DNA of 34,311 nt from Candidatus Competibacter sp. (GTDB lineage Bacteria > Pseudomonadota > Gammaproteobacteria > Competibacterales > Competibacteraceae): positions 1 through 34,311 of the forward strand of contig JARSSH010000008.1 of the NCBI GenBank assembly GCA_029624815.1. Direction: 5' to 3'. The notes under the pieces are model-generated. The model was not told where the DNA came from. It searched no databases and worked only from the letters and a program-made list of their open reading frames with translations. The position numbers and the translations under genes were made by a program. Of this stretch, positions 2,052-34,311 are shown piece after piece (the first letter of the stretch is position 1; every line of letters starts with the position of its first letter).

Positions 2052-2062
2052 GAGGGTGCGTC

Positions 2063-3082: not shown

Positions 3083-4248
3083 CGGCGATCAGCCACCAGC
3101 CGCTCGGCGGCAAAGTCGTCACCAAGCCGTTTCTGATTCTCGGCTTCTTCCTGCTGATCGCGGCCTATTTCATTGTGCGTCGCTTCCTGTTCGGGATGGG
3201 CGATGTTTCGAATATGAGCAACGGTTATCCCATCGGCACCTGGGTGGTGCTGGATGTGGTGATCGGCACGGCCTTCGGCTGCGGCGGTTTCGCCATGGCG
3301 TTGCTGGTCTATATCTTCAATCGCAGGGTGTATCACCCGCTCATGCGGCCCGCCCTGCTCGGCGGGGTGTTCGGCTACACCTTGGCCGGTCTGGCGGTAA
3401 TGATCGATCTGGGTCGCTACTGGAACGCCTTCAACCTGTTGCTGCCCTGGTACGCCCAGCCGAACTCGGTGATTCTGGAGGTGGGGCTGTGCGTCATGGC
3501 CTACATCACCGTCCTGTGGCTGGAATTCTGGCCGGCGTTTCTGGAGCGCATGCCGTCCGAATTCAAGCAACGGTATGGCTTGAACAGGCTCCAGGCTTTC
3601 CTGAAACGGTACATGTACGTCCTGGTGGCGGTCGGGGTGTTGCTGCCGACCATGCACCAGTCCTCGCTGGGCTCGGTGTTGCTGATCATGGGTTCCAAGC
3701 TCTCCCCCCTGTGGTACACCATCTGGCTGCCGCTGCTGTACCTGATATCGGCGCTGGCCATGGGCTACGGGGTAGTGATGCTGGAAGCCACCCTGGTCAA
3801 TCGGGCCTTCAAGACGCCGTCCGAGGCAACGTTGTTCGCGCGACTGGCGCGGGTCGTCGCCGGCCTGCTGACGGGCTACCTGCTGCTGCGCTGGGGCGAT
3901 CTGGCTTATCGCAGCGATCTGGGCCTGGCCTTTGCCGGCGATTGGGATGGCAATCTGTTCCTGATCGAAACCGCGCTGTTTCTCGCGCCCCTCTTCGTGC
4001 TGGTTTCTCACCGTCGGACCAGCCAGCGCTGGCAGTTTCTGGCGGCGGTTTCCCTGCTCGCCGGCGGTTCGTTGTACCGGCTTGACTCCTACCTGATGGC
4101 CGTGCGGCCCGGCAATGGCTGGACCTATTTCCCTTCGGCGCCAGAGCTGATGATCACCATCGGCGTCGTCTGCCTGGAAATCATGCTGTATTTGCTGTTC
4201 ATCAAGACCCTGCCGGTGCTGCACGGCGCCCATCAGGCCCAACCATGA
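3079..4248 (+). CDS. hybB: Hydrogenase 2 integral membrane subunit HybB (NrfD/PsrC family)
   Basis: This is the integral membrane quinone-reactive subunit of the Hyb hydrogenase. In E. coli it couples H2 oxidation to quinone reduction and is thought to help move protons. The 389-residue product is hydrophobic throughout, with about ten predicted transmembrane segments, starting with FLILGFFLLIAAYFIV. Motifs such as GTWVVLDVVIGTAFGCGGFAMA, DLGRYWN and LPTMHQSSLGS are typical of HybB within the NrfD family. No cofactor-binding histidine pattern for a b-type cytochrome was noticed, which fits NrfD proteins. It overlaps hybA by four bases, implying translational coupling, and is followed after 16 bases by hybC. 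In this locus the quinone partner could be rhodoquinone as well as ubiquinone. Confidence 0.94.
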   Translation: MTAISHQPLGGKVVTKPFLILGFFLLIAAYFIVRRFLFGMGDVSNMSNGYPIGTWVVLDVVIGTAFGCGGFAMALLVYIFNRRVYHPLMRPALLGGVFGYTLAGLAVMIDLGRYWNAFNLLLPWYAQPNSVILEVGLCVMAYITVLWLEFWPAFLERMPSEFKQRYGLNRLQAFLKRYMYVLVAVGVLLPTMHQSSLGSVLLIMGSKLSPLWYTIWLPLLYLISALAMGYGVVMLEATLVNRAFKTPSEATLFARLARVVAGLLTGYLLLRWGDLAYRSDLGLAFAGDWDGNLFLIETALFLAPLFVLVSHRRTSQRWQFLAAVSLLAGGSLYRLDSYLMAVRPGNGWTYFPSAPELMITIGVVCLEIMLYLLFIKTLPVLHGAHQAQP

Positions 4249-4264
4249 CGATCGGAGGCTGTCC

Positions 4265-5971: not shown

Positions 5972-6471
5972 TGAGAATCGTGGTTCTGGGCCTCGGCAAC
6001 ATCCTGCTGCGCGACGAGGGGGTCGGCGTCCGGGTGGTCGAGGCGCTGGCCGCGCGCTACCGGCTGCCGGCGGAAGTCGAGGTGGTCGACGGCGGCACCG
6101 TTGGCATGGATTTGTTGGACACCCTGGCCGGCAGCGATCATCTGCTGGTGTGCGATGCGGTGCAAACCGGCGCACCGCCGGGGTCGGTGGTGAAGCTGGC
6201 CGATGCCGAAGTGCCGGCTTTGTTTCAAACTCGCTTTTCCCCGCATCAGTTGGGTTTGGCGGAGGTACTGGCAACCTTGATCCTGATGGAAGAAGCGCCG
6301 GCTGCCCTTACCCTGATTGGCGTGGTGCCGGCCGATCTGGAATTGGGCGTCGAATTGTCGCCCGAGGTGGCGGCGGCGCTGGAACGGGCGGTGGAGTGTT
6401 TGGCGGACGCGCTGCGTGGTCTGGGGTTGCACCCGACGCCACGCCGCGCCACGCCGGTCGCGGCGATCTAG
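5971..6471 (+). CDS. hybD: Hydrogenase maturation endopeptidase HybD
   Basis: This nickel-dependent protease (M52/HybD family) trims the C-terminal tail of HybC once nickel is inserted, letting the protein close round the active site. The N-terminal signature GLGNILLRDEGVGVRVVEAL is typical. The residues that bind nickel in E. coli HybD (E16, D62, H93) are seen here as E16 (RDEG), D62 (VCDAV) and H92 (SPHQ). Length (166 residues) is normal. The start codon overlaps the stop of its substrate gene hybC, as expected for a coupled maturation factor. The last ten or so residues are basic and low in complexity and may be a lineage-specific extension. Confidence 0.95.
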   Translation: MRIVVLGLGNILLRDEGVGVRVVEALAARYRLPAEVEVVDGGTVGMDLLDTLAGSDHLLVCDAVQTGAPPGSVVKLADAEVPALFQTRFSPHQLGLAEVLATLILMEEAPAALTLIGVVPADLELGVELSPEVAAALERAVECLADALRGLGLHPTPRRATPVAAI

Positions 6472-6475
6472 GCCC

Positions 6476-6718
6476 GTGTGCGTCGCCGTCCCGGCCCAGG
6501 TGGTCGAAGTCCGCGACGCCAGCGCGGTGGTGGAGCGCTACGGCGAGCGGCTGGAGGTGAGTTTGTTGCTGCTTCAGGACGAGGTCGCGGTCGGCGATTT
6601 CCTGATCCTGCAAGCGCGGGCCTATGCCGTGGAAAAAATCGCCCCCGAGGAAGCAGCCGAGATTTACCGTCTGTTCGACGAGTTTGTCGGCGCGACCGAC
6701 GACAACGCGACGGCATGA
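6476..6718 (+). CDS. hybG: Hydrogenase assembly chaperone, HypC/HybG family
   Basis: The 80-residue product begins V(M)CVAVPAQVVEV. This matches the family's N-terminal MCxAxPG signature, in which Cys2 binds iron of the Fe(CN)2CO unit and contacts the large subunit or HypD. The start codon is GTG directly followed by TGC for that cysteine, only four bases after the hybD stop. The rest (VERYGERLEVSLLLLQDEVAVGDFLILQARAYAVEKI) keeps the small beta-barrel pattern. Its place after hybD makes it the counterpart of E. coli HybG, though HypC and HybG cannot be told apart by sequence alone. hypA, hypB, hypD, hypE and hypF are not in the window and must lie elsewhere. Confidence 0.88.
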   Translation: MCVAVPAQVVEVRDASAVVERYGERLEVSLLLLQDEVAVGDFLILQARAYAVEKIAPEEAAEIYRLFDEFVGATDDNATA

Positions 6719-6784
6719 GGTCGCGGTCGGCCCGCGCCTTGCCTGAGCTTCGCATCGTCCCACGACGGGGTTGCCCATCCTGAC

Positions 6785-7996
6785 ATGGCCGATGGCGCGA
6801 CTGGTGGAGTCGAAGGCGGCCTGAGTATTCGGGTCACGGTGCAAGACGGCCGCATCGTGGCGGTCGAGCTGAGTTCGACCCGGCCGGTGAAGCTGTGCAC
6901 CCGGCTGGTGGGGTGCGAGGTCGGCGCCGCCATGGCGCTACTGCCCCGGCTGTTCGGCGTATGCCGCGTCGCGCAGGCGGTCGCTGGCCTCGCCGCCGTC
7001 GAAACCGCCCTTGGCATGGTTCCCGCGCCTCCTCAACTGGCCGCCCGCCGTTTCCTGGTGGCCGCCGAATCCCTCGAACAAACCGCTTGGCGTCTGCTGC
7101 TGGATTGGCCGCGCTGCGTCGGTGCAAGCCCCGCTCTCGAACCCCTGAAACGGGTGCGGCAACTCCTGTCTATCCTCCCGCTCAAACTGTTCCCCGACCG
7201 GGCTTGGCATCGCATCGGTGGCGCGCGACTGGCCCCGGCCCGGATGGATCTCGCCACGATGCTCGACCAACTCCAGCTCGCCATCCACCAGGCGGTTTGC
7301 GACGACGCCACCCGGAATGACTGGCCTTTGACCGACCGCCGGAACTTCGAGCGCTGGCTGCGTCGTGCTTCCACGCCGGCGGCGCTGACCCTGCGTTGCC
7401 TGTGCGAGCAGGGTTTGGCGGATTTCGGGCGCGGCACGGTGGAGGCGCTGCCGGCATTCGACCTCGCCGTGCTGGAGCGACGGATGGCGGCGGCCGACGG
7501 TGATGCGTTTTGCGCCCGCCCCGACCTGGATGGCGCGGTCCATGAAACCGGAGCCCTGGCCCGATTGTGGGTGCATCCGCTGATCGCCGATTTGCGCGCC
7601 GACCATGGGAATGGTTTGCTGACGCGCTGGGCGGCGCGGTGGGTGGAACTGGATGGACTGCTGACCGAACTCCGCCGGCAATGGGTACGGCTGGAAGAGC
7701 ATCCTGGATCACCGATGGAGCAGACCGACGCTGGCGTCAGCGCTGGTTTCGGTTTCGTGGAGAGTGCGCGTGGTCGCTTGTGCCACCGGGTAGCGGTGGC
7801 GGTGGGAAAGGTGACCGACTACAAAATCCTCGCGCCGACGGAATGGAACTTTCACCCGGAAGGCCCGCTGGCGCGCGGTCTGGCGGGCGCGCGGGTCGCT
7901 GAAGCCGGCGCGCCGCCGGTCCGCCGCGCCGTTACTCTGCTGGCGACGGTGCTTGATCCCTGCGTCGGTTTTGAGTTGGTCGTTGAGGAATCCTGA
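6785..7996 (+). CDS. hupK: HupK/HoxV-like hydrogenase assembly scaffold (large-subunit relative)
   Basis: The 403-residue protein looks like a reduced and altered hydrogenase large subunit. Near residue 57 it has RLFGVCRVAQAVA where the enzyme has RICGVC, so the first cysteine is replaced by Phe. Near the C-terminus it has LDPCVGFE instead of DPCxxCxxH, so the second cysteine is lost and there is no cleavable tail motif. NYQAVVPSTWN of HybC has a weak counterpart in DYKILAPTEWNFHPEG. HupK/HoxV proteins with such losses are proposed scaffolds that hold the Fe(CN)2CO unit before transfer to the large subunit. It starts 66 bases after hybG and closes the operon. The exact family is inferred from motifs and position, but catalytic activity looks impossible. 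Confidence 0.78.
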   Translation: MADGATGGVEGGLSIRVTVQDGRIVAVELSSTRPVKLCTRLVGCEVGAAMALLPRLFGVCRVAQAVAGLAAVETALGMVPAPPQLAARRFLVAAESLEQTAWRLLLDWPRCVGASPALEPLKRVRQLLSILPLKLFPDRAWHRIGGARLAPARMDLATMLDQLQLAIHQAVCDDATRNDWPLTDRRNFERWLRRASTPAALTLRCLCEQGLADFGRGTVEALPAFDLAVLERRMAAADGDAFCARPDLDGAVHETGALARLWVHPLIADLRADHGNGLLTRWAARWVELDGLLTELRRQWVRLEEHPGSPMEQTDAGVSAGFGFVESARGRLCHRVAVAVGKVTDYKILAPTEWNFHPEGPLARGLAGARVAEAGAPPVRRAVTLLATVLDPCVGFELVVEES

Positions 7997-8024
7997 ACGG
8001 CCAAGTGATAAAGCGCAAAATTTA

Positions 8025-8053
8025 TTGCAGCGCAACATTTGCTTTGTTAGAAT
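8025..8053 (+). promoter_or_regulatory. Candidate sigma70 promoter
   Basis: TTGCAG and TAGAAT are separated by exactly 17 bases. The -10 box matches the consensus at five of six positions and the -35 box at three. It lies 30 bases after the hupK stop and would start a transcript reading through the leader and the small membrane-protein gene to the terminator at 8566-8610. Confidence 0.4.
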
Positions 8054-8353
8054 GTTCCCAATTCGGTTGCGCTATGCAAGGAAATTCAAGCCTCTTGTCG
8101 GCAAGAAAGAGAGGCGTTCCGCTTGGGTAGCTTCGATTATGACTCGTTTAAAGGACACCCGAAGCACGAGTCTCCATACGTCGGGCGGTGCGCCAGAGGG
8201 CTGGATCAGTCTTTGCTTGATCGTTTTGATCCCGGACGGCAAGCGCACTGTCAGAATACGAAGCCGCCCGCGACCGATCTTCTGACATCTAAACAGATGG
8301 AGGACGTGCGTGGTCTCTGTCCTGAGCGATGGGGTTTCCACAGCGTATATATC
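8054..8353 (+). other. Long untranslated leader or uncharacterised RNA region
   Basis: About 300 bases between the candidate promoter and the small membrane-protein start. Open frames here lack recognisable domains, and none has a persuasive ribosome site. I saw no known riboswitch motif. A short GGAC...GTCC hairpin lies near 8300-8325. A regulatory leader or an independent small RNA ending at the 8566-8610 terminator is possible. Confidence 0.3.
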
Positions 8354-22246: not shown

Positions 22247-22544
22247 GGTGCCTCGGCTGAATAGGGTCGGTAGGGAGAGCATTAGCTGTATAGCATCATA
22301 CTACCCCCGATCCTCGAAATACCGCCGGCGCGTTTGATACTGGCGACCCTTGCGGGATGGTGGGCTGCGCTCTTTAAAACCGCGCTTTCCAGAGTGAGCC
22401 TGTAATCTGGGATATTTGCCCAACCCGCATTAGACTTAATTTTTAGTGCCGGAAGGCTCCACGCTACTTTACTTTTCCCTGTCCCGCGGGCTAGGGAAAT
22501 CGCGCCTCGAAGGGTTTTCGGCCATCGCTCGTACAGGAGAGACA

Positions 22545-23696
22545 ATGCCACTCTACGACATGCGCAAGTTCGTCGCGCCGGAGTTCATCTTCGGCGTCGG
22601 CGCGCGGCGGCGCGCGGGATTTTACGCGCGCAACCTGCAAGCGCGACGCGTTTTGGTCGTCACCGATCCGGGCATCATCCGCGCGGGTTGGCTGAGCGGG
22701 CTGCTTGCCGATCTGGAAGAAAGCGGGCTGCAAGCGGTGGTGTTCAGCGGGGTGACGCCCAACCCTCGGGATCACGAAATCATGGCGGGCGAGCAGGTTT
22801 ACCGCGACAGCGGCTGCGATGTGATCGTGGCCTTGGGCGGCGGCAGCGTCATCGATTGCGCCAAGGGTATCGGCATCGTGTTTGCCAACGGCGGCCATAT
22901 TCTTGATTTCGAGGGCGTCGATCGCATCGACCATGCCGGCCCGCCGCTGATCTGTGTCCCCAGCACGGCCGGCGCCGCCGCCGATATCTCGCAGTTCGCC
23001 ATCGTCAACAATACTCGGCGGCGCTACAAGATCGCCATCATCAGCAAGGGCGTGGTGCCGGACGTGGCGCTGGTGGACCCGGAAGTCACCCTCACCATGG
23101 ACCCATATCTTACCGCCTGCACCGGTCTCGACGCGCTCAGCCATGCCGTCGAAGCCTACGTATCCACGGCGAGTTCGCCGGTGGTGGACGTCCATGCGCT
23201 GGCCGCCATTGAACTCATCCGCGATTTTTTGTTGCAGGCGGTCACCGAGCCCGCCAACCTGGCGGCGCGGGAGAATATGATGCTGGCCAGCCTGCAAGCC
23301 GGCCTGGCTTTTTCCAACGCCAGCCTCGGTGCGACGCATGCCCTGTCCCACAGCCTGGGCGGCTATCTGGACTTGTCGCACGGAGAAAGCAACGCTCTGT
23401 TGCTCGAACATGTCGTCCGCTTCAACTATCGCGTTGCCGAAGAGCGCTACCGACGCATCGCCCAAGCGATCGGTGTGCCGCTCGCGGGCGGAACCGGCGG
23501 GGAAAGGAGCCTCACCGGGGCATTGCAAACGCTGCGCGAAGCGTGCGGGATCCGCGATGGCCTCGCGGCGCGTGGCGTGACCTCCGGCGAGATCGTGGAG
23601 CTGGCGCCGCCGGCCGCCCGCGACGCCTGTCTGGTCACCAACCCGCGCCGCGCCAGTCTGGCCGACATCAAGGCGCTCTATGCCGAAGCCCTCTGA
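22545..23696 (+). CDS. Iron-containing alcohol dehydrogenase, ErcA-like
   Basis: The 383-residue group III alcohol dehydrogenase has the nucleotide-binding motif GGGSVIDCAKGIG and the metal-binding segments CTGLDALSHAVEAY and HALSHSLGGYLDLSHGESNALLL, giving the expected Asp and three His ligands. The start, MPLYDMRKFVAPEFIFGVGARRRAGFYARNL, resembles the ErcA subgroup, linked in Pseudomonas to control of ethanol oxidation. AGGAGA precedes the ATG at 22545, while the frame further upstream is not conserved. Its last 17 bases overlap the start of the PAS-GGDEF-EAL gene, so the two products are probably made together and may act in one signalling or redox-sensing pathway. The substrate cannot be told from sequence. 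Confidence 0.88.
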   Translation: MPLYDMRKFVAPEFIFGVGARRRAGFYARNLQARRVLVVTDPGIIRAGWLSGLLADLEESGLQAVVFSGVTPNPRDHEIMAGEQVYRDSGCDVIVALGGGSVIDCAKGIGIVFANGGHILDFEGVDRIDHAGPPLICVPSTAGAAADISQFAIVNNTRRRYKIAIISKGVVPDVALVDPEVTLTMDPYLTACTGLDALSHAVEAYVSTASSPVVDVHALAAIELIRDFLLQAVTEPANLAARENMMLASLQAGLAFSNASLGATHALSHSLGGYLDLSHGESNALLLEHVVRFNYRVAEERYRRIAQAIGVPLAGGTGGERSLTGALQTLREACGIRDGLAARGVTSGEIVELAPPAARDACLVTNPRRASLADIKALYAEAL

Positions 23697-25881
23697 GCCG
23701 ACCGGCGATCGCGCCTGGGAGTTGCTGCGGGACCAGATTATCGGTTTGGGCGAACGCTCCTTCCGCAAGAGCTACTACCCCGAATTGCGCCGTAACCTGT
23801 GGCGGTTGGAACGGTTTCGCGCGCTGTTGGACTTCGCCGGCGACATGGTGCTGCTCATTGCCCTGCCCGACGGCGAGATGATCGACGCCAACGCGGCGGC
23901 GGCCGAGATTTTCGGCCAGCCGCTCGAAGCGCTGATCGGCCGCCGGTTCGGCGAACTGGGTCTCGACCGCGCCACCGAAATTCTGACTTCCCTGGTCCGG
24001 GATACGGTCGGCGCCGCGCCGTTGCGGCGGATCGAAGCGACCGTGCGGAGCCGCTCCAGGTCGATCCCGCTCGATCTGACCTACCGCATCGCCGAACTGG
24101 ATGGTCGCCGGTACGGCGTCTTGCTGGGGCGCGACGCCCGCGCCCGCATCGCGGCGGAAGCCCGCTTGCGCTTGGCCGAGCGGGTGTTCGACGATAGCGG
24201 CGAGGGCATCGTCGTCGCCGACACCCAGGGTCGCATCGTCGAGGTCAACCGCGCTGGCGAGAACATCACCGGCTACCGCCGCGCCGAGCTGGAGGGTCAG
24301 AGCCCGGAACGGTTTGCCATCGAGAGTCACGACCCCGGCTACGATCGGAATGCTTGGGCGATGCTGCGCGCGCAGGGCTACTGGCAGGGCGAGATCTGGA
24401 GCCGACGCAAGAACGGCGAAGTATTCCCGGTCTGGCTGTCGGTCAGCGCGATCCGCGACGAAAAAGGCGTGGTTTGCCACTATGTCGCCATGTTTTCGGA
24501 CATCAGCGCGAGCAAGGCGCATGAAGCGCGTCGCAAGGCCGATGAAGCGCGTATCCAGCATATGGCGCACCACGATTTCCTGACCGGCTTGCCCAACCGG
24601 CTGCTGCTGGAAGTCCGGTTCGGGCAATTGCTGACCGAGGCCCGCCGCCGCCGCAAGCGGTTTGCCCTGCTGTTCATCGACCTCGATCGCTTCAAGAACA
24701 TCAACGACACCTTCGGTCATGGCGTCGGTGACCGGCTTTTGTGCGGCGTGGCCGCGCGCCTGTCCGCCCTGGTCCGCGCCACCGATACCGTGTCGCGGCA
24801 AGGAGGAGACGAGTTTGTCGTTCTGCTGTCCGAGATCGGCGGTCCCGACGATGCGGTCCTGGTGGCGCGCAAGCTGCTGCGGGAGCTGGGCGAGCCGTGC
24901 GTGCTGGAGGGGCACGACCTGACGGTGACGCCCTCCATCGGCATCGCTGTCGCCCCCGACGACGGCGAGAGTCTGGAGACCCTGCTCAAGCACGCCGATC
25001 TGGCGATGTACGAGGCCAAGCGGCAGGGCCGCAACAACTATCAGTTTTTCCAGCAGGAAATGAATGCGCGGACATTGGAGCGGCTGCTGCTGGAAAACCG
25101 ATTGCGGCAGGCCTTGAAGCAGGAAGAATTCGAATTGTTCTACCAGCCACAAGTCGATCTCGAAACCGGCCGGATGGTGGCGTTCGAGGCGCTGTTGCGC
25201 TGGCGTCATCCCGAGCGGGGACTGGTATTGCCGATGGATTTCCTCCCCTTGGCCGAGGAAACGGGCCTGATCCTGCCCATGGGGGTATGGGTGCTGCGGG
25301 AGGTGTGCCGGCAGGTCGCCGCCTGGCGGCGCGGGCCGTGGCCGGAAATCCGGGCAACGGTCAATCTGTCGGCCTTGCAGTTCCGGCAGCCGGCCTTGAT
25401 CGAGCAGCTGCGCTCCGCCTTGGCCGATGCGGAGGTGGAAGCGGAGGCCATCGAGCTGGAGGTGGCGGAAGGCGTGGCGATGCAGGATGCCGGAGCGACT
25501 GTCCACATTCTGCGCGCACTGCGCGCCATGGGTGTCACGCTGGCCATCGACAACTTCGGTACTGGCTATTCGTCGCTGGCCTATTTGAAGCAGTTTCCGG
25601 TCAGCGTACTGAAGATCGACCGCTCTTTCGTGGGAGATATTGGCGAGGATATCGGCAGCGCGGCCATCTGCGCGGCGGTGATCGGCCTCGCCCGCAATCT
25701 GGGTCTCGATGTCGTGGCGGAAGGGGTCGAGACCGACGCGCAAATAGCCTGGTTGCGCGCCGCCGGCTGTTGCCGGGCGCAGGGGTTTTTACTGGGCGCG
25801 CCACTGCCCGCGGCCGGGTATGCGACCGGTGCGGATCTGGAGGTGCGATTGAATGACATGGGATCGCTCGAAGGCGAATAA
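23680..25881 (+). CDS. PAS-PAS-GGDEF-EAL cyclic-di-GMP turnover protein
   Basis: The 733-residue cytoplasmic protein has no membrane helices. An N-terminal PAS-like domain lies at about residues 45-150 and a second PAS/PAC at about 165-290. The GGDEF domain follows, with GGDEF at 375-379 and an intact RxxD inhibitory site (RATD) five residues before it. The EAL domain starts near 480 with EAL at 503, and later shows NLSALQF, KIDRSFV, VVAEGVET and AQGFLLGAPLP. The usual DDFGTG motif reads DNFGTG (N625), which touches a metal-binding position and may weaken phosphodiesterase activity, while the cyclase motif is intact. The ATG overlaps the alcohol dehydrogenase gene by 17 bases, suggesting translational coupling and a shared signal. 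Confidence 0.94.
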   Translation: MPKPSEPTGDRAWELLRDQIIGLGERSFRKSYYPELRRNLWRLERFRALLDFAGDMVLLIALPDGEMIDANAAAAEIFGQPLEALIGRRFGELGLDRATEILTSLVRDTVGAAPLRRIEATVRSRSRSIPLDLTYRIAELDGRRYGVLLGRDARARIAAEARLRLAERVFDDSGEGIVVADTQGRIVEVNRAGENITGYRRAELEGQSPERFAIESHDPGYDRNAWAMLRAQGYWQGEIWSRRKNGEVFPVWLSVSAIRDEKGVVCHYVAMFSDISASKAHEARRKADEARIQHMAHHDFLTGLPNRLLLEVRFGQLLTEARRRRKRFALLFIDLDRFKNINDTFGHGVGDRLLCGVAARLSALVRATDTVSRQGGDEFVVLLSEIGGPDDAVLVARKLLRELGEPCVLEGHDLTVTPSIGIAVAPDDGESLETLLKHADLAMYEAKRQGRNNYQFFQQEMNARTLERLLLENRLRQALKQEEFELFYQPQVDLETGRMVAFEALLRWRHPERGLVLPMDFLPLAEETGLILPMGVWVLREVCRQVAAWRRGPWPEIRATVNLSALQFRQPALIEQLRSALADAEVEAEAIELEVAEGVAMQDAGATVHILRALRAMGVTLAIDNFGTGYSSLAYLKQFPVSVLKIDRSFVGDIGEDIGSAAICAAVIGLARNLGLDVVAEGVETDAQIAWLRAAGCCRAQGFLLGAPLPAAGYATGADLEVRLNDMGSLEGE

Positions 25882-25967
25882 CGCATGACCCCGGTTCGAT
25901 CCGCCGCCCACCCGCCGGGTGGCCCGGCTCGCCAGATCCACCTTTTTTCAGGATCGTCAACTTTATC

Positions 25968-26291
25968 ATGAGCTTTGCAACGCTGATTGGGATACTCGCG
26001 GCGATGGGAATTGGCCTGTGGTTTTGGCGCGACAGTCTCGGCGCCCGCGAACAGGCGCGCACCGCCAGTTCTCGCGCCTGCCAGCAGAGCAACGTGCAGT
26101 TATTGGACGACACCGTGGCGCTGGAGCGGCTGTGGTGGCGGCGCGACCGCGATGGCCGGCTCAAGCTGGAGCGGTTGTACGTGTTCGAGTTCACCGATAC
26201 CGGCCAGCGCCGCCAGGTCGGTAGTGTGCTGCTGGTCGGCTGGCGGGTGGAGGTGCTGCACATGGAGGGCGGCGATCTGCTGCTACCCTGA
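25968..26291 (+). CDS. DUF3301 family membrane-anchored protein
   Basis: The 107-residue product has one N-terminal membrane helix (ATLIGILAAMGIGLWFW). A conserved soluble part follows (ASSRACQQSNVQLLDDTVALERL, RDRDGRLKLERLYVFEFTDTGQRRQVGSVLLVGWRVEVL), which matches the gammaproteobacterial DUF3301 family. Members are small single-pass proteins of unknown function. It lies 86 bases after the GGDEF-EAL gene on the same strand and is the last chromosomal-core gene before the accessory region. The family is a useful sign of a gammaproteobacterial host. Confidence 0.85.
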   Translation: MSFATLIGILAAMGIGLWFWRDSLGAREQARTASSRACQQSNVQLLDDTVALERLWWRRDRDGRLKLERLYVFEFTDTGQRRQVGSVLLVGWRVEVLHMEGGDLLLP

Positions 26292-26302
26292 GATGCTGCC
26301 CA

Positions 26303-26757
26303 TTATATATACCAATAAGATCATGATTTTTCTGAATTAAAAATAGGGAATCCCCTCCCCCGCAAGGGGGAGGGCGGTTTGTGTGTAACGGACAGCCCAT
26401 AACGGCTCTGCATCATCGATACGGCCATCCCTATTTTCGTTTCTCGCCACGCTGTTGCTTTTGCTCGGCCAACCAGTGTGCCAAGTCCGTCGGCTTCTCG
26501 AAATCCAGCAAACCTCGTTCAGTATGCAAGCGCATCATCAATAGCGCTCCCGTTCCTGACGCGGGTTTTCACGCCTTAGTACACCCATCCAAGCTTTGAT
26601 GAATGCTGCTCTAGCCTTAATGTTCTATTTTGATGCATTTTAAGAATGTGACAATGTGCGGATTGGCCAGCTAAAAGATGTTGCATTACTATATATATAA
26701 ATATTTTATGCCATTTTAGAAAACACACTTGCATTGTGACACATACTTAGTAGTAAC
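26303..26757 (+). repeat. Duplicated upstream block, copy A (about 455 bp)
   Basis: This block is repeated, in the same orientation, at 31379-31975. The first 270 bases or so are nearly identical; the rest is diverged but colinear, ending at TGACACATACTTAGTAGTAA here and TGACATGTACTTAATGGTAA in copy B. It contains a perfect CCCTCCCCC-GCAA-GGGGGAGGG hairpin (26353-26374), 10-base inverted repeats AAAATAGGGA (26340-26349) and TCCCTATTTT (26428-26437), and a 34-codon ORF remnant on the minus strand. It lies upstream of the large IPTL-CTERM gene and may supply its promoter. Confidence 0.8.
26431..26535 (-). pseudogene. 34-codon ORF remnant in repeat copy A
   Basis: Reads MRLHTERGLLDFEKPTDLAH, continues WLAEQKQQRGEKRK, then stop. 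The same peptide, with Glu for Ala, is in copy B at 31506-31610. It looks like the C-terminal tail of an unrecognised gene carried along in the repeat. The sequence upstream of the shared ATG differs between copies. Confidence 0.35.
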
Positions 26758-26969
26758 ATATTTATACGTCATGCGGTGTGTCGATATAGCATTTAAGCCC
26801 CAGCGTGTTGGAAAAGTACGTTGTGAGACGTTCCTAACGAAAAATGTGGAGTAAGTGCCAATTTCTATTCGGCTTGGCAGGCGCAAGATTCGCGCTGTGA
26901 AGTCAACCGAGCTAACCGAGGGTCGAAGACCCTTGCTGGACTATAGTGTTGATATTGGAGGGGGAACCA
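26758..26969 (+). other. Leader of the large IPTL-CTERM gene
   Basis: No gene is supported. A GGGTC-GAA-GACCC hairpin lies at 26921-26933 and a GCGC-AAGATT-CGCGC-type pairing just upstream. I looked for the GEMM riboswitch pattern seen at the left end and did not find it here. Confidence 0.4.
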
Positions 26970-29900
26970 ATGAGCTTCTGTAATAAATTAGGATTTATAG
27001 TTGGGGTGCTAATGTTCGTATCGACTGCCATCGCCCAAGATGTGAAGCCAAATGAGCCTTTGCCGATGCCAATTGTTAATTATCAAACTACAACAAATAA
27101 TCAAGGAGATACCATTTGGCGTGCTGATATTAACTCGGGTTGTCAGTATTCAGACCATAACTATGGCTTAGACATTCCGGTAGACCCTAGCTTGATGTCC
27201 GATATTGTCTTTACGATGACTAACTATGATGTGGATTATAATGACCCACAAAGCTGTTTGGGTGGACCAGAGGTTGACATTACAAAGATTAATAATAGTA
27301 CTCTTGGTATCTTGACTGGAGCAAACAATTCTTGGAGCACAAACTCTTGGAAGCTGGATAAAAGCCAGATCGTCAAAGGCAATAATAAAATTTATATAGA
27401 TACCGATTCAACTAATACAGGTTGTTGGTGTGTAGGGGTCGGCTATATTGAGGTACGCGCCAAGGTTGGGTTTGAAGTAACTTCATCTACCCCACAAGAT
27501 AAAGATATCAATAGGGATTTTCGGGCCAATAAATTAAATTTAACATTTGAATTTTCTGATGATGTTGATCCAAGCACGCTGAGTGATAGAACATTTAGAC
27601 TAGAATATCAAAGTGGAGGAACGCCAGTAACGGGGAACTTTCAGTTAGAGTCGCCTAAAAAAATACGCTTTACTCCCGACAGCGACCTTAAGGATGGTGT
27701 GCGTTATAAGGTCACCGTAGTGAGTGGTACGAATGGCGTCAAGGCTAAAAGTGGTGCGGAACTCAAAAAAGATTATGCATTGGCTTTTTCCACAGTGCCT
27801 AACTTGGATCTTTCAGATAGCTTTGATTATGGTGGTGGCTCTGTTTGCCCTCCTTCCACGTCACCATGCCCAGGTCTGGAAGTTGCTGTTTTTCAAACGG
27901 CTCGAAACCAGACTATGGTCCCTAATAAATTGGCTGTGGCACGCCTATATCTGCGTTGGAAGAAACATAACGGTGTGCCATCCGCTGATCAAATCACCGA
28001 GATGGACGTAGAAGCCAGTCTGAATTTAGCTGCAACAACACGAGAAACGGTTAAACGCCCTGACGGTTATACTGCTCAGCAGCGAGATCAGGCTGCAAAC
28101 ACCATCAATTTATATCACACGCCTAACGGGAATTATAAGTACGAAGCGACAGTTACGCCTCTTCCTCAAACCAATATTGAAATCGTTAAATTCACTCAAG
28201 CCAATGATCTCAATGGGATAGCTGAGCAGCCAAAAATCAAATTCGATTATTACACTCTTAAAGATGGTGCTTGGGCGACGGGCGTTCCAATCGGCGTCCA
28301 GCCTGCCAGTAAAAATCTCATGGCCAGTGGTTCTCAATTTACACAAGAGCAATTTCCTGCCATCAGTTTTACCTTTGATGATAAGGGTGAGCACTCCATT
28401 GGCTATACGCTCACGGGAAACACAAAAGATTACAATAATGGTTGTGGCGTAGTCAATGAGGTGAGCTGTCCTAACTCAAGGTTGTTCTTTTTTGCAAAGG
28501 ATATGTCGGAAATCGATTGTGCTTATAGCAAACTATCTTCGATGCTTGGAGGTAAAAAGTTTGTAGCGGCAACTGTACCAAATAATTTGTGTGTTGGCGC
28601 TACCGCTTTTGCTATAGGAAACAAAGTATTCATGCATCAATTCGGTGCGGGTGGTAACCATGCTACTATTGCTCACGAAATAGGCCATATCTATGGTATC
28701 AGTAAAGCAAATGATCCTACACCGGGGCACCGCAACGATAGTACTGGCGTTGAAGGGTTTCGCGTGCTTCAACATGAAAACCGCTCCCGGATTGAAACGA
28801 ACAATGCCCAGCGAACAGTTTCTTTAATGTACACGGCACTTCAGCCGGACAAGTGGATTCACAATGAAGACTATAAAGCATTGTTTGCCACTGTCAAAAC
28901 AACGGCAACAGCTAACAATGCTAAGGCAACTGCCGTTGCTGGTAAGTTTCTTATCGTTTCGGGAACCGTCAATACGACAACTGGCGATGTCACCCTAGTT
29001 CCCACATTCCTTCAGGAAGTTCCTAATGATGACCTGCTGAGTGCGGGTGAATGCTTGCTTGAGTTGATCAATGGCCAACGCAGCGTACTATCAAGCACGT
29101 ATTTTGATCCGGGCCGTGAAATTATTGTCGAGAGTGTAAAAGGCGGTCACGCTTATTCCAAGCAAAGTGTCACCGAAGACCGCCTGTTCAACGCTAGCCT
29201 GCCTTGGGATGATGCAGGGCGCGGTCTGAGAATCTCCTGTGGAAATGCTGTATTACTGGAAGAAATATTTACGGTGGCCACACCCTTGGTTAAATTCACT
29301 AATATTTCCGATGGCGATACTCTATCAGGGAAAAAAATCGTTCAGTGGTCAGCCAATGATACGGACAGTCCTAATTTGGCTTACCAGCTTCAGTCGAATC
29401 ATGACAATGCGGGTTGGATACCCTTGACATTCCTGTTGTCAACTCCGCAATTCGAGCTTGATACCACGACACTGCCTTCCAGTGATCAAGTCCAGCTTCG
29501 AATCATGGTCACGGATGGCTTCAACACCGCCTATGATGTCAAAAAAATCGCCATCCAAAATAAACTGACTGTGACAGCTGTTGATCCCACCAACGAAGCA
29601 AAGGGTACGGGTGAGATTTCGATCAATACACCGATTAGCGCTCTATTCGATACGCCTGTTTCGGTAGATAACGTCACCAACAAGCGGTTGAATTTGTCTG
29701 CCAACGGGGTGCCAGTAAGCGGTGAATTATCATTGGCCAATGAAGATCGCAAGATAGTTTTTACGCCGGATAAGGCATTGTTACCCAGCACAACCTATAC
29801 TGCTACACTTAGTGCTGATTTCGCTGATACTCATGGTAATACGTTGGAACAGATCTTTAGTTGGAGCTTTACTACGGAATCAGATCGTATTTCACCTGTT

Positions 29901-30989
29901 GTAAGCGGTGTCGATCCTGTTAATGGGGACATCGATGTGCCAATGAATACGGTTATTGAAGCGCGCTTTGATAAGGCCCTGAAAGGTTCAACAGTTTCCA
30001 CTTCAAGCTTCAGTCTATCGGATACCCAACAAAATATGGTTTCTGGTAGCGTCAACTACAATGCCTCAGATAACAAGGCGGTATTTATTCCGAGTCAGCC
30101 ACTAGCTGCTAACACGAGCTATATCGCGCGCCTTGCAACGACGATTACTGATACAGTGGGTAATTTTTTGGAGAAGGAGTTTACTTGGCAATTTACCACT
30201 GGAGGGTCTAGTGACTCCGGCTATCGCATCACAGATGTCTATAGAGATGAAGCTAACGATATTGACGGTGATGGTCTTTTTGATCAGCTAACGATTTTGG
30301 TTCAGGTACAGGTTTCCCTTGCAGGGATATATAACCTGAATGGCCGTCTGACCGATATCAATGGTCATTTGCTAGGGTGGGCAACAACAGGAAATATCTC
30401 GCTAGCTCCTGGGTTTCACGTTCTATCTTTAATCTATAGTGGAGTCAATATTAGGAGCAATGGGGTCGATGGACCATACTTCATGGGCCCACTCAGCTTT
30501 TATGCCATGAACGATCCTAATAATGGGGATTTGAGATTTAAGGCATATCAAACATTCCCTTATAAAGTTACTACGTTCTTCAGTGAACTCTCATTCGGCG
30601 GTATTCCAGATGTGACGGTGCAGCCTGGCCAATTCTATGATAATATTATAGATTTGGAGCAATACACCGCCCATGCAGTGCTGCCTTTATCCGAGGTAAG
30701 CTATAAGATCTTTATTAATACCGACCCCAAGATTGGTTTAAGTATCGATTCCAATAATAATATTGACATATTACCTCAACCGGGTGTTGGTAAATTTAGT
30801 GACGTGACTATCTTAGCCACGGATACCCATGGTAACAGTGTTCAGGCTTCATTTAGGGTCAATGTCGGGACATTGCCAGCACCTCCCCCTGTCAATTCTA
30901 CGAGCATTCCTACCTTGTCTGAATATGGAGTGTTACTGATGAGCATTCTGCTTATGCTTTCAATATGGCTACGTCGCCGAGTAAACTAA
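26970..30989 (+). CDS. Large secreted IPTL-CTERM protein with Big_5-like domains and a metzincin-like HEIGH motif
   Basis: The 1339-residue product has a signal peptide (KLGFIVGVLMFVSTAIAQ) and a C-terminal sorting signal: IPTLSEYG at 1313, then a hydrophobic helix and RRRVN. IPTL-CTERM signals are processed by an exosortase-type system (XrtH); no such enzyme is in the window. A first SbsA-like Ig domain (Big_5) spans about 165-275. A middle region carries HEIGHIYG at 569-576, a zinc-protease HExxH motif, with SLMYTA about 55 residues later resembling a Met-turn; the third metal ligand is unclear. Two more Big_5-like domains lie at about 865-965 and 974-1075, with an unassigned C-terminal part. 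The ATG at 26970 follows GGAGGGGG. The gene is visibly AT-rich and probably acquired. Likely a surface protease or adhesin. Confidence 0.85.
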   Translation: MSFCNKLGFIVGVLMFVSTAIAQDVKPNEPLPMPIVNYQTTTNNQGDTIWRADINSGCQYSDHNYGLDIPVDPSLMSDIVFTMTNYDVDYNDPQSCLGGPEVDITKINNSTLGILTGANNSWSTNSWKLDKSQIVKGNNKIYIDTDSTNTGCWCVGVGYIEVRAKVGFEVTSSTPQDKDINRDFRANKLNLTFEFSDDVDPSTLSDRTFRLEYQSGGTPVTGNFQLESPKKIRFTPDSDLKDGVRYKVTVVSGTNGVKAKSGAELKKDYALAFSTVPNLDLSDSFDYGGGSVCPPSTSPCPGLEVAVFQTARNQTMVPNKLAVARLYLRWKKHNGVPSADQITEMDVEASLNLAATTRETVKRPDGYTAQQRDQAANTINLYHTPNGNYKYEATVTPLPQTNIEIVKFTQANDLNGIAEQPKIKFDYYTLKDGAWATGVPIGVQPASKNLMASGSQFTQEQFPAISFTFDDKGEHSIGYTLTGNTKDYNNGCGVVNEVSCPNSRLFFFAKDMSEIDCAYSKLSSMLGGKKFVAATVPNNLCVGATAFAIGNKVFMHQFGAGGNHATIAHEIGHIYGISKANDPTPGHRNDSTGVEGFRVLQHENRSRIETNNAQRTVSLMYTALQPDKWIHNEDYKALFATVKTTATANNAKATAVAGKFLIVSGTVNTTTGDVTLVPTFLQEVPNDDLLSAGECLLELINGQRSVLSSTYFDPGREIIVESVKGGHAYSKQSVTEDRLFNASLPWDDAGRGLRISCGNAVLLEEIFTVATPLVKFTNISDGDTLSGKKIVQWSANDTDSPNLAYQLQSNHDNAGWIPLTFLLSTPQFELDTTTLPSSDQVQLRIMVTDGFNTAYDVKKIAIQNKLTVTAVDPTNEAKGTGEISINTPISALFDTPVSVDNVTNKRLNLSANGVPVSGELSLANEDRKIVFTPDKALLPSTTYTATLSADFADTHGNTLEQIFSWSFTTESDRISPVVSGVDPVNGDIDVPMNTVIEARFDKALKGSTVSTSSFSLSDTQQNMVSGSVNYNASDNKAVFIPSQPLAANTSYIARLATTITDTVGNFLEKEFTWQFTTGGSSDSGYRITDVYRDEANDIDGDGLFDQLTILVQVQVSLAGIYNLNGRLTDINGHLLGWATTGNISLAPGFHVLSLIYSGVNIRSNGVDGPYFMGPLSFYAMNDPNNGDLRFKAYQTFPYKVTTFFSELSFGGIPDVTVQPGQFYDNIIDLEQYTAHAVLPLSEVSYKIFINTDPKIGLSIDSNNNIDILPQPGVGKFSDVTILATDTHGNSVQASFRVNVGTLPAPPPVNSTSIPTLSEYGVLLMSILLMLSIWLRRRVN

Positions 30990-31320
30990 ACACTTTTGGC
31001 TAAGGATTGGCTTTGGTTTAGTAGCAACACTGGCAGTGCAGTGCGCTGAAGGCTGTCGATTCCACACATCTCTAATCGGTTGATTAGGTATGGAGATCGG
31101 AGGCCAATCGCATTCCCCAAGCGAGGTCGCGAGGTCGCGAGGTCGCGAGCGCGCTGTGCAACCCGATCCAGGCTTGGGGACCGGGAGGACCGTCGCTGCG
31201 GCCCAGATGGCCGCCGAGACGGGCGATCCAACCGAGCATGGCTGGCAGCAGTGGCTCAAGATCTGTGTAATGAACAGATGCAAAAGGAGACCACCTCTCA
31301 CATCGCTTTAAGTCTCAGCA
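30990..31320. other. GC-rich spacer without a supported gene
   Basis: This stretch between two AT-rich segments contains three tandem copies of GAGGTCGC (31123-31146). Several overlapping open frames cross it, but none shows a domain, codon bias or ribosome site that would support it. It may be the remnant of a host-like gene or of an inserted element, or a small RNA ending at the following terminator. Confidence 0.4.
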
Positions 31321-31346
31321 AAAGGCCCGCCAAATGGCGGGCCTTT
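31321..31346 (+). terminator. Intrinsic terminator
   Basis: AAAGGCCCGCC-AAAT-GGCGGGCCTTT is a perfect 11-base stem with a 4-base loop, followed by TGTTAT. The A and T ends make it able to work in both directions. It probably closes transcription from the large IPTL-CTERM gene or from an RNA in the GC-rich spacer. Confidence 0.85.
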
Positions 31347-31505
31347 GTTATAGCGACACTCCCTTTAGCACCTGACCTATTATATATATCCATAACATCA
31401 TGATTTTTATGAATTAAAAATAGGGAATCCCCTCCCCCGCAAGAGGGAGAGCGGTTTGTGTATCGGACAGCCCATAACGGCTCTGCATCATCGATACGGC
31501 CATCC

Positions 31506-31610
31506 CTATTTTCGTTTCTCGCCACGCTGTTGCTTTTGCTCGGCCAACCAGTGTTCCAAGTCCGTCGGCTTCTCGAAATCCAGTAAACCTCGTTCAGTAT
31601 GCAAGCGCAT
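31506..31610 (-). pseudogene. 34-codon ORF remnant in repeat copy B
   Basis: Same peptide as in copy A (RLHTERGLLDFEKPTDLEHW, ending QQRGEKRK), with one amino-acid and one silent difference. Here the frame stays open upstream through EHPRQEREISLSL and into the MITE-like insert, by chance or because the insertion kept the frame. The parent family was not recognised. Confidence 0.35.
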
Positions 31611-31650
31611 TAGGCTCAATGAGATCTCCCGTTCCTGACGCGGGTGTTCA

Positions 31651-31788
31651 TACCGTTTCTCAATAGATTTTATGATTCAGAGGGGTAGGGCGTCGGCCCG
31701 TAACCCGCCGATTTGATTGTGACTTCGGCGGGTTACGCTGCGCTAACCCGCCCTACGCGGGAAATATAAAACTTACCGGGAATTGGTA
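31651..31788. mobile_element. 138-bp MITE-like element with 3-bp target duplication
   Basis: The element begins TACCGTTTC and ends GAATTGGTA, imperfect terminal inverted repeats of the TACCAATTC type. It is flanked on both sides by TCA (31648-31650 and 31789-31791). Copy A of the surrounding block has a single TCA and no insert, so the empty site is preserved in the same window. Inside, GTAACCCGCCGA pairs with TCGGCGGGTTAC, and GTAGGGCG pairs with CGCCCTAC. It is too small to encode a transposase. Confidence 0.75.
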
Positions 31789-32040
31789 TCACGCCTCAGC
31801 TCACCCACCAAAGCTTCGACGAAAGATACTTGGTCTTAATGTTCTGCTTCGATACGTATATAAAATGCGACAATACGTCGGTCGTGAGCAAAAATATGTG
31901 TCGTCATTAATTGATTACAATATTTATTTTTTTATAAACACCGGCTTGAATTGTGACATGTACTTAATGGTAAGCTACCTTCGATGAAAACCTTAGGGAT
32001 GTTTCATTGCTCTTCACAACATTTGGGATTGGGGGAATAC

Positions 32041-32301
32041 ATGAAAAACATCTTGTTGTTGGCTACGGCAACACTTGCCACATTCTCATTCTCGAACGGT
32101 ACGGCTTTCGCCGCCTGCGCGGATGGTATCCGGGTTCAGGAAGCAAGAATGACCGCACAAGACGCTCAAGAAGCGGAATCATTAGAGGCCGCTTTCAAGT
32201 ATATGAAAGAGGCCAAACTGCTCTGCGCCCGAGGCGACGAAAGCGAAGCAGCCAATGTTTTAAACCAGCTCAAAACATTACTAACAAATATGAGTCGGTA
32301 G
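32041..32301 (+). CDS. Small exported helical protein of unknown function
   Basis: The 86-residue product has a clear signal peptide (MKNILLLATATLATFSFSNGTAFA). The mature domain of about 62 residues is Ala/Glu-rich, probably alpha-helical, with two cysteines (AACADG and LLCARG) that could form a disulfide. I do not recognise the family. The ATG at 32041 follows GGGGGA, while the longer frame from 31984 has no ribosome site. The second IPTL-CTERM gene starts 19 bases later, so the two are probably cotranscribed from the promoter in or near repeat copy B. It may be a partner or chaperone of that surface protein, but this is only positional. Confidence 0.7.
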   Translation: MKNILLLATATLATFSFSNGTAFAACADGIRVQEARMTAQDAQEAESLEAAFKYMKEAKLLCARGDESEAANVLNQLKTLLTNMSR

Positions 32302-32320
32302 TCATAACTGGGGGGAAAAT

Positions 32321-33151
32321 ATGAAACTCAAATACATGCGCAATTTGTTGGTTCTGGCTGCTTTGACATCATCACCCGCGTGGGCGATCTTTACCAACGG
32401 TGGCTTTGAATCCGGTGACTTCACGGGCTGGACGAAGACCATCGGAAGCAACCCGGGCCTGACTGGCACGCCGCCGTTCACTGGCGCCAATGTGGTGATC
32501 GGTGCCGGCGGCTCGGATACGAGTGCCGTGATCGGCGCGGGGGCTGACCCGCGGGCTCCGCAGCTCGTGCTGCCACGTGCGGGCGCTTGGACCGCGCGCG
32601 TCAATGATTTCAATAGCGGTGCCATCATCAACTCGATCAAGCAGTCGGCACCGATTACCGCCGCTGATCGCGACCCGAACGACAATAAGCTCCACGTCCG
32701 CTTCAGCTACGCTGCGGTGCTCGAGGATCCGAACCATACGCCCAACGCCCAGCCCTACTTCTACGTCAGACTGCGCAATGTCACCAAGAACACCCTGTTG
32801 TACGAAGACTTCACATTCGCGAACCAGCCCGGCAAGCAGTTCACGACAACGGTGGTCAACTTGGCCACATGGCTTTCGACGACCAATTTCATCAATGTCG
32901 ATATCGTAATCCCGGAAACCGACATCGGCGATACCCTCGAGATCGAGGCGCTGGGTGCCGACTGCTCGTTTAGCGGTCACGGTGGCTACGTGTACCTTGA
33001 CGGTTTCGGTTCGGCGGTTGTTCCCCCCGGCCCCACCACGGCGGATAATCCGATTCCTACGCTTTCCGAGTGGGCAATGATCCTGCTGTCGCTGGCTCTC
33101 GCGGGCGCCGTCGTATTTACGCAGCGGCGGCGCAACGGTTCGTGGCTCTGA
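32321..33151 (+). CDS. IPTL-CTERM sorted secreted protein
   Basis: The 276-residue product has a signal peptide (LLVLAALTSSPAWA), then NGGFESGDFTGWT, a start common among PEP-CTERM-type surface proteins with a carbohydrate-binding-like jelly-roll domain. The body is beta-rich without catalytic motifs. The C-terminus has IPTLSEWAMILLSLALAGAV from residue 245, followed by a basic tail QRRRNG. This is the IPTL-CTERM signal that directs membrane insertion and release by an exosortase. GGGGGA precedes the ATG. Base composition is much more GC-rich than the larger IPTL-CTERM gene, so the two probably have different histories. A terminator follows 21 bases after the stop. Confidence 0.85.
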   Translation: MKLKYMRNLLVLAALTSSPAWAIFTNGGFESGDFTGWTKTIGSNPGLTGTPPFTGANVVIGAGGSDTSAVIGAGADPRAPQLVLPRAGAWTARVNDFNSGAIINSIKQSAPITAADRDPNDNKLHVRFSYAAVLEDPNHTPNAQPYFYVRLRNVTKNTLLYEDFTFANQPGKQFTTTVVNLATWLSTTNFINVDIVIPETDIGDTLEIEALGADCSFSGHGGYVYLDGFGSAVVPPGPTTADNPIPTLSEWAMILLSLALAGAVVFTQRRRNGSWL

Positions 33152-33172
33152 CCTTCCTTTAGATCGTGCGAG

Positions 33173-33197
33173 GAGCCTCCTGCGAAGGGGGCTCTTT
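33173..33197 (+). terminator. Intrinsic terminator after the second IPTL-CTERM gene
   Basis: GAGCCTCC pairs with GGGGGCTC (one T-G wobble) around a TGCGAA loop, followed by TTTCATT. It ends the 32041-33151 unit before the next gene at 33219. Confidence 0.65.
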
Positions 33198-33218
33198 CAT
33201 TGCTAGGGAACGAAACTT

Positions 33219-34046
33219 ATGATCGAGAGTTCGCGACTGCGATTCGTGTGGTTTGGGGTGGTGGCCGCGTTGCTCGTCTTGGGGCTGGCCGGCCCGATTC
33301 AGCGCTCGATCGCCACCCGCTCCAAGCCGGCATCGTCCGCCGATGCGCATCGGCAACAGTTGCGCCAGGAGTTCGACGCCCTCCGGGATGAGTTCATGCG
33401 TGATCGCGCCACCATCATCAATCGCGTCCGTTCGCTCCAGCGCGCCGACCATCACGACACGGCGATGAATTTGGCGGCGCGGTTCTATCCGCTGCAAGAT
33501 CCGGAGATGAACGCGCTTTACCAAATTTCGGCCAGTGCGGAGGGTCAACGACAGCGGCTCGCCGAGTACCGCGATTTGGTCGCCCGGGAATGCACCGACA
33601 CGGCGGCACGGACGCATGTGATCGAATACCTGCGTTTGGGGCGTAAACCCGAGGAGCGATCCGAAATATCCGCCATCACTCAATTGGCGTTGACAAGGCT
33701 ATCGGGGAGCGCGATCCGCGCGGATGTGGTCAAGCGGTTACAAGAGCCAATCGAGGTGACGGACGCACCGGGCCATGAAACTGAGCATCACGATCATGCC
33801 GCAGCCGCGCATCGGGCACATGTACACCCGGATTTTGTCGCGGCTCTGCTCCGCGGGACCGCCGCGTATGACGAACTGCTTTGCGTGTGGGGGGGTGATG
33901 GTCAGCGAACGTGGGCGGATGGTTCCCGCCATTTCGAGCTGCTGCTGCTGCTTGCTCCGTCGGCCTCCGGTAAGAGGCTCGAACCTGAGGTATTCTTGTA
34001 CGCCGAGCGCCCGCACCAATCTGCTGCTGCCACAGTGTCTGATTGA
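33219..34046 (+). CDS. Membrane-anchored protein of unknown function
   Basis: The 275-residue product starts with one hydrophobic helix (RFVWFGVVAALLVLGLAG), probably an uncleaved signal anchor. A charged, probably helical region follows (ADAHRQQLRQEFDALRDEFMRDRATIINRVRSLQRADHHD), then a predicted soluble part. A His-rich stretch (GHETEHHDHAAAAHRAHVHP) near residue 190 could bind metal. I recognise no family. From about 33740 on, other frames on both strands are open too, so the last third is less certain and could reflect a frameshift or a fused end. The start ATG at 33219 has only a weak upstream GGGAACG-like site. It follows the IPTL-CTERM unit after a terminator, so a separate promoter is expected. 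Confidence 0.55.
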   Translation: MIESSRLRFVWFGVVAALLVLGLAGPIQRSIATRSKPASSADAHRQQLRQEFDALRDEFMRDRATIINRVRSLQRADHHDTAMNLAARFYPLQDPEMNALYQISASAEGQRQRLAEYRDLVARECTDTAARTHVIEYLRLGRKPEERSEISAITQLALTRLSGSAIRADVVKRLQEPIEVTDAPGHETEHHDHAAAAHRAHVHPDFVAALLRGTAAYDELLCVWGGDGQRTWADGSRHFELLLLLAPSASGKRLEPEVFLYAERPHQSAAATVSD

Positions 34047-34311
34047 TTACAGCGGTAGCACTCCTTAAATGCGCCCCGCGCACCGAGGATGTGAAGAAAC
34101 TATCTTTCGTCTGGATGGCTTGTTGTTACTGCCTATATAGCGATCCCAGATCAGTTGTGGTTGCCGCCCGCCACACCCTCACCCCGCGCGGACGCGCTCC
34201 CCTTGTATGTTTTGAGTGAGGTAGAGTTTGGGTTGACGTGGTAGCGCGATACCCCTCTTGTATGTTTTGAGTGAGGTAGAGTTTGGGTTGACGTGGTAGC
34301 GCGATACCCCT
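34047..34311. other. Intergenic region with tandem repeats at the window edge
   Basis: No gene is supported between the previous stop and the edge. The first 155 bases are unremarkable. The remainder is the 55-base tandem repeat listed separately. Confidence 0.5.
34202..34311. repeat. Two exact 55-bp tandem repeats
   Basis: The unit starting CTTGTATGTTTTGAGTGAGG and ending GCGCGATACCCCT occurs at 34202-34256 and again, without a mismatch, at 34257-34311, reaching the window end. The array may continue beyond it. There are no spacers, so it is not a CRISPR array. Confidence 0.9.

Follow-up and report, generated by a model that had tools for sequence, protein, structure and literature searches.

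In Vibrio cholerae, the proteins that carry a GlyGly-CTERM sorting signal include serine proteases and a putative metalloprotease (PMC13393428; see also PMC3237569). For another C-terminal signal, IPTL-CTERM, a description of Methylomirabilis lanthanidiphila gives such a domain as predicted at the C-terminus of its S-layer protein, and our literature search found no paper joining exosortase and XrtH. Here we describe gene P0001 (26970-30989), which encodes a 1339-residue IPTL-CTERM protein with a metzincin-like centre in Candidatus Competibacter sp. (assembly GCA_029624815.1). The window, that is, the whole stretch of DNA analysed, comprises 34,311 nucleotides (contig JARSSH010000008.1, positions 1 to 34,311), and the genes, protein features and two long direct repeats located in it below lie on its plus strand. 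On balance we lean slightly towards P0001 being a horizontally acquired accessory gene for an XrtH-sorted surface protein, the core of which derives from a metalloprotease and probably has weak or no proteolytic activity.

Relatives of the core and the zinc-site motif

Relatives were sought by class, phylum, family and order, in genome sets that overlap and with queries that differ. The core was matched in 2 of 369 genomes (the own genome and G392), 2 of 398 (the own genome and G700), 1 of 39 (the own genome), 1 of 32 (G392) and 3 of 61 (G700, G817 and G818). The class-level search of 369 genomes, which used residues 283-682, revealed G392 as the one other genome matched, and its protein is collinear with residues 42-1337 of the window protein (30.6% identity over 1368 columns, E = 2e-161). 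A two-row profile obtained two further relatives in G700, and a four-row profile gave seven relatives in total in G700, G817 and G818, which belong to another class. With the core of the G392 protein (L036) as a query, three more relatives were found on plasmids of Roseinatronobacter, Croceibacterium and Qingshengfaniella; the 11 relatives considered below are the eight from the genome searches plus these three plasmid matches. No further relatives were obtained from genome contigs with the family alignments A1 and A2. There was likewise no match in viral contigs with the window core, A3, the L036 core or A6, and none in plasmids with the window core or with the N-terminal domain.

The original prediction had described a HEIGHIYG motif followed by SLMY, with Lys where the metzincin motif has its third His, and comparison with the relatives backs each of these points. 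HExxH is kept in all 12 family sequences (the window copy and its 11 relatives); in the window it reads HEIGH (residues 569-573, 28674-28688), which by analogy would contribute the catalytic Glu and two of the zinc ligands. Where a third zinc-binding His would be expected, the window has K579 (codon AAA, 28704-28706), giving HEIGHIYGISK in the window as against HEMYHSFGISH in the plasmid relative L036. All 11 relatives have His there, and among these 12 sequences Lys occurs in the window copy alone. Three relatives depart from the motif Gly, L054 with Asp, L058 and L127 with Ala. The Met-turn, SLMY in the window (residues 618-621, 28821-28832), has its Met in the 11 sequences that cover the site. 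The twelfth, L128, is annotated as two overlapping frames, the first of which stops short of the Met-turn, and it enters the count of the His motif alone. In the family sequences, 41-57 residues, an invariant Arg among them, separate the third-ligand place from the Met-turn Met. A chance occurrence of HExxH and Met-turn was considered and is ruled out by this conservation. The window copy carries the Met-turn and departs from the metzincin motif HExxHxxGxx(H/D), and because this defining zinc motif fails, we do not file it as a metzincin. The absence of the third His is genuine and, within these 12 sequences, peculiar to the window copy, which by comparison with its relatives has lost its canonical third zinc ligand.

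The idea of a metzincin-like centre drew support from the relatives, with their full third His and Met-turn, and from profile matches. When the A4 profile of nine members was compared with solved structures, MMP-12 came first (E = 1.3e-4), followed by archaemetzincin (1.3e-3), ADAM33 (1.7e-3) and two NPCBM/NEW2 proteins (1.5e-3 and 2.0e-3), all among the best 60 of 164 matches. These matches back the motif more than the fold, because the best of them span about 48 residues around the zinc helix. Single A4 members weakly match Reprolysin_5, Peptidase_M10 and other Pfam families; the best Pfam match of any of the nine was Peptidase_M10 (E = 1.9e-4), and the best NCBIfam match reached an E of 1.1e-3. 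The window core itself gave no Pfam match over cut-off and no NCBIfam match, and its identity as an eCIS_core was rejected (20.3 bits against a cut-off of 22, over 33 residues around HEIGH). We regard the family as probably metzincin-like, and found a model dedicated to it in neither Pfam nor NCBIfam.

Sorting signal and XrtH

The frame of P0001 is intact, from ATG 26970 to the stop at 30989 without an internal stop, and its IPTL-CTERM tail (residues 1311-1337, 30900-30980) exceeds the cut-offs of both Pfam (PF18203, 28.1 bits against 20.8) and NCBIfam (TIGR04174, 21.5 against 20.5), in agreement with the giant IPTL-CTERM gene first proposed from the letters. The exosortase that the proposal had suggested looking for is present as well: XrtH gave a single match in the own genome (G000:C15:9954-10403, 182.9 bits against a cut-off of 86), which also holds four IPTL-CTERM matches over cut-off, two of them within the window. 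In G392, XrtH lies on a separate 207-kb contig and scores 135 bits once neighbours are joined. Searches of G700, G817 and G818 gave no XrtH match, and their seven relatives are without an IPTL-like tail by eye. These few genomes fit a pattern in which the sorting tail would follow the presence of XrtH; the merely IPTL-like tail of the G392 protein, described below, speaks against it.

By analogy with other sorted proteins, the giant protein would be exported by its signal peptide, host XrtH would cut the IPTL-CTERM tail, and the remainder would end up anchored on the outer surface or set free there. The N-terminal domain and the three immunoglobulin-like (Ig) domains may then serve to hold out the metzincin-like core.

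Two further loci of the genome touch on sorted proteins. At the XrtH locus (L081, G000:C15:6000-18000), positions 3955-8296 hold an S8 subtilase with a C-terminal dockerin and, adjoining it, an IPTL-CTERM protein in which a cohesin occurs along with two PASTA domains; the two possibly form a cohesin-dockerin pair by which a protease is kept on an XrtH-sorted scaffold. At L082 (G000:C60:184500-196500), positions 1869-6413 encode a 1514-residue IPTL-CTERM protein that combines Ig domains with a pro-kumamolisin activation domain and for which the Pfam scan listed no catalytic domain; it may represent a second sorted protease-like protein of the genome.

Proteolytic activity of the window copy

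The relatives, with a three-His zinc motif and a Met-turn, are most likely proteases. For the window core, lysine at the third-ligand place would most likely mean weak zinc binding or none, in which case the protein would work as a binder and not as a cutter; lysine is not known to be a zinc ligand in metzincins.

Several observations weigh against a sorted surface protein with a weak or inactive core. Apart from K579 the motif is intact (H569, E570, H573, G576, R598 and M620), unlike the long drift of a dead enzyme, and a single Lys-bearing sequence is known. Single-sequence folds of residues 283-770 and 502-645 reached a predicted local distance difference test (pLDDT) score of 30.8 and 31.8, with no usable model. 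The tail of L036 (IPSLGW, a hydrophobic stretch and a basic end) has 6 of 30 residues identical to the window tail and gives no Pfam IPTL-CTERM match even at an E of 1. Furthermore, H587 (28728-28730) lies eight residues beyond K579, at a distance from which rescue of the site is conceivable, and in leishmanolysin the last His follows a 62-residue insertion that leaves the site undisturbed (PMC5572447).

The last two points, together with the other motif residues kept in the window copy, would suit an active surface metalloprotease in which H587 stands in for the canonical third His, an alternative that we hold as tentatively possible. It could also draw on the distance from the third-ligand place to E595, which is 16 residues in the window as against 12 in L036, and on L054 and L056, which carry His at the H587 place too. 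However, H587 is not conserved: its column, counted over the nine A4 rows, has His in three of them and a gap in L036. Because L054 and L056 have the canonical His as well, H587 is no ancestral ligand. Nor is the loop that bears it specially long, since the same distance is 20-26 residues in the ten other relatives, where the canonical His is present, and with these lengths part of the case for H587 falls away, a case that rests in the main on the leishmanolysin precedent. We would place inactivity or strongly reduced activity of the window core somewhat above rescue by H587.

A third possibility concerns EGFR (residues 595-598, 28752-28763), the ends of which are Glu or Asp at the E595 place and Arg at the R598 place in all 12 sequences. 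A non-metzincin site of two His and an acidic ligand such as E595, to which K579 would be irrelevant, could account for this conservation. We consider it very unlikely, as the third His coexists with that Glu or Asp in all 11 relatives; the acid at E595 is more simply read as a structural or substrate-pocket residue.

Base composition and limits of the island

The base composition of the gene, which had been described as unlike that of its flanks, indeed stands apart. P0001 has a GC content of 44.1%, while 81 segments of 4 kb from the own genome, which overlap and are not independent (taken from window positions 1-26292 and three other stretches of the genome), have a mean of 62.5% (standard deviation 2.3, minimum 57.7%). 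GC content at third codon positions is 41% in P0001, 82% in the two upstream genes measured, 52% in the downstream open reading frame (ORF) 31984, and 74% and 70% in genes 32321 and 33219. The AT-rich stretch runs from about 26300 to about 32300, wider than the gene, and the core gave no match in any of the family's 38 other genomes. A foreign origin of this AT-rich DNA is supported by that absence, by the composition and by the break in similarity described next.

The left edge of the island can be placed at 26292/26293: DNA similarity with the sister genomes G001, G002 and G003 (88-89%) stops at 26292-26294, the end of a gene for a protein of 107 residues. In G001 the similarity is 88% over 22445-26292, and in G002 and G003 it covers shorter stretches. 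A convergent gene for a 451-residue membrane protein (permease-like by eye) ends 50 bases past the break in G001; in the own genome, the block that follows the break in G001 lies at the start of another contig (G000:C1:350-3800), where the permease-like gene lacks roughly its final 50 bases. The island spans at least 26293-34311, where the contig ends, and probably reaches contig C1; the order in G001 suggests that contigs C8 and C1 adjoin. At the contig end there is a 58-base direct repeat (34199-34311, copies 98% identical), which possibly caused the assembly break.

Plasmid relatives, direct repeats and mobility

The contig of the G392 relative has a GC content of 37%, and because its ends overlap exactly, by 140 bases, the molecule of 8593 bp is apparently circular. 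It carries a Rep_3 initiator, a BrnT/BrnA pair and a phage-type integrase, and the giant gene makes up 48% of it. Pieces of its backbone are 73-77% identical to Acinetobacter and Moraxella plasmids over 141-161 bases among the matches listed, and 34 of the 38 records matching the backbone are from Acinetobacter. An origin of the plasmid gene in a dif module was rejected, as no dif-like site was found with the one pattern used. On each of the three alphaproteobacterial plasmids, the gene of the relative comes after those of two similarly sized hypothetical proteins (L126, 2487-3876; L127, 2511-3884; L128, 2379-3829), and this neighbourhood appears conserved, a candidate operon.

Within the island, two direct repeats flank the giant gene, the left one (26299-26757) upstream of it and the right one (31376-31973) just upstream of the next gene pair. 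About 5.1 kb apart, they are 93% identical between 26299-26571 and 31376-31650 and 69% identical between 26569-26756 and 31789-31973. The gene pair consists of an ORF of 105 residues (31984-32301) and the second IPTL-CTERM gene of the island (276 residues, 32321-33151). Such an arrangement could result from recombination of a plasmid-like circle that carried the gene and left two repeats behind, which would be compatible with the other readings and would agree with the apparently circular molecule of G392 and the three further relatives on alphaproteobacterial plasmids. We nevertheless think it rather unlikely. The second repeat precedes another IPTL-CTERM gene, so that a duplicated upstream region explains the repeats about as well as a recombination scar. 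Neither of the two island ORFs scanned (31984-32298 and 33219-34043) has a Pfam match, and no rep or integrase was seen in these two; nor did the one pattern used locate a dif-like recombination site.

Other explanations for the repeats were tried. The upstream repeat as a general promoter of IPTL genes was rejected, since the zone adjoining the gene shares just a 22-base match (E = 0.88) with the surroundings of the genome's two other IPTL-CTERM genes. No known RNA element lies near the repeats according to Rfam (no match at the gathering threshold in 25800-34311), and a tRNA target was discarded because there is no tRNA in the window. The right repeat is interrupted by a short, GC-rich insertion with inverted repeats (31651-31788), of which the own genome has at least seven further copies (92-94% identical) and G015 one (93%). 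The opening of the repeat, roughly 100 bases (26296-26400 and 31376-31480) that contain a GC-rich hairpin, is found at 13 other genome sites (18 matches), at five of which it is split into two parts about 40-110 bases apart. Between the giant gene and the right repeat, a stretch with an 8-base tandem repeat (GCGAGGTC, 31047-31255) has counterparts, 71-87% identical, in several family genomes.

If small mobile elements do carry giant surface proteins that borrow the XrtH of their host, they could remodel the surface of the recipient; the plasmid form might then be a working protease, and the chromosomal form might have turned into a non-cutting binder, a pseudoprotease, after loss of the third ligand. 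This broader scenario is speculative, and we give it a low probability. Even so, a plasmid of less than 9 kb that gives about half its length to one surface protein, presumably reliant on a host sorting enzyme, raises the question of how a giant surface protein benefits its plasmid.

Domain organization of the giant protein

From the N-terminus, the domain order is signal peptide, N-terminal domain, Big_5, pre-core stretch, HEIGH...SLMY core, a further stretch, two Big_5 domains, C-terminal domain and IPTL-CTERM. The ORF listing begins the frame at GTG 26946; ATG 26970 is the better start because GGAGGGGG precedes it. Scanning for promoters in the region of the gene yielded 15 sites, where shuffles had 10.9 (standard deviation 3.1), and we read nothing from this.

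The signal peptide (residues 1-22, 26970-27035) was read by eye in the translation. It is followed by the N-terminal domain (residues 42-166, 27093-27467), which is the best conserved part relative to the plasmid protein (72 of 125 aligned residues identical) and which may be carbohydrate-binding-like; the Pfam scan gave no match in residues 1-177. The three SbsA-like Ig domains of the original prediction correspond to three stretches of Pfam Big_5 (E = 5.3e-48, 162.5 bits against a cut-off of 23.6), at 27468-27800, at 29562-29873 and at 29883-30200 (residues 972-1077), the boundaries of the first two having been set by eye. The pre-core stretch (residues 283-372, 27816-28085), which runs from FQTxRN to RWKKHN, is conserved and present in the relatives too, and the C-terminal domain (residues 1085-1205, 30222-30584) is weakly similar to DUF4785_3rd, below the cut-off.

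Comparison with known systems

That the layout is unusual, as had been proposed, needs some qualification. C-terminally sorted proteases are known, as the GlyGly-CTERM proteins illustrate; NCBIfam names a family of myxosortase-dependent metalloproteases, and this genome has the 1514-residue IPTL-CTERM protein with its protease-type domain. In the literature covered on inactive metzincins and pseudoproteases, we noticed no comparable example from a bacterial surface. The GlyGly-CTERM/rhombosortase system resembles the one described here in that a C-terminal signal, together with an intramembrane sorting enzyme, keeps secreted proteases at the surface (PMC3237569, PMC13393428). The MYXO-CTERM/myxosortase surface proteases share the C-terminal signal and the intramembrane sorting enzyme, and two A4 members weakly match NF041905, the myxosortase-dependent metalloprotease family (E = 0.0011 at best). 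Both systems differ from the window protein in their sorting enzyme and signal.

With the proteins sorted by XrtH, the window protein shares a signal peptide, the IPTL motif, a hydrophobic stretch, a basic end and a genome that encodes XrtH, but it is very large and foreign to its family, and the tail of its plasmid relative is IPTL-like. With metzincins of the MMP, reprolysin, archaemetzincin and serralysin type, it shares HExxH and a downstream Met-turn followed by a conserved Tyr, whereas its Lys in the place of the third His, the weak peptidase matches of its family in Pfam and NCBIfam and the 41-57 residues, invariant Arg included, between third-ligand place and Met-turn set it apart. The 'Ig-like domain-containing proteins' of alphaproteobacterial plasmids (WP_277807419.1 and WP_156320216.1) have the pre-core stretch, where tblastn covers 20-21% of the query, and an HExxHxx[GA]xxH core; unlike the window protein, they have an intact third His and no IPTL-like end by eye.

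Within the searches made, three features appear new in relation to these systems: the family itself, a metzincin-like one outlined here that has no strong Pfam or NCBIfam match; its long tailed form, which is tied to XrtH in two distant hosts and in one of these is borne by a small plasmid; and a zinc ligand lost in nature although every relative found keeps it.

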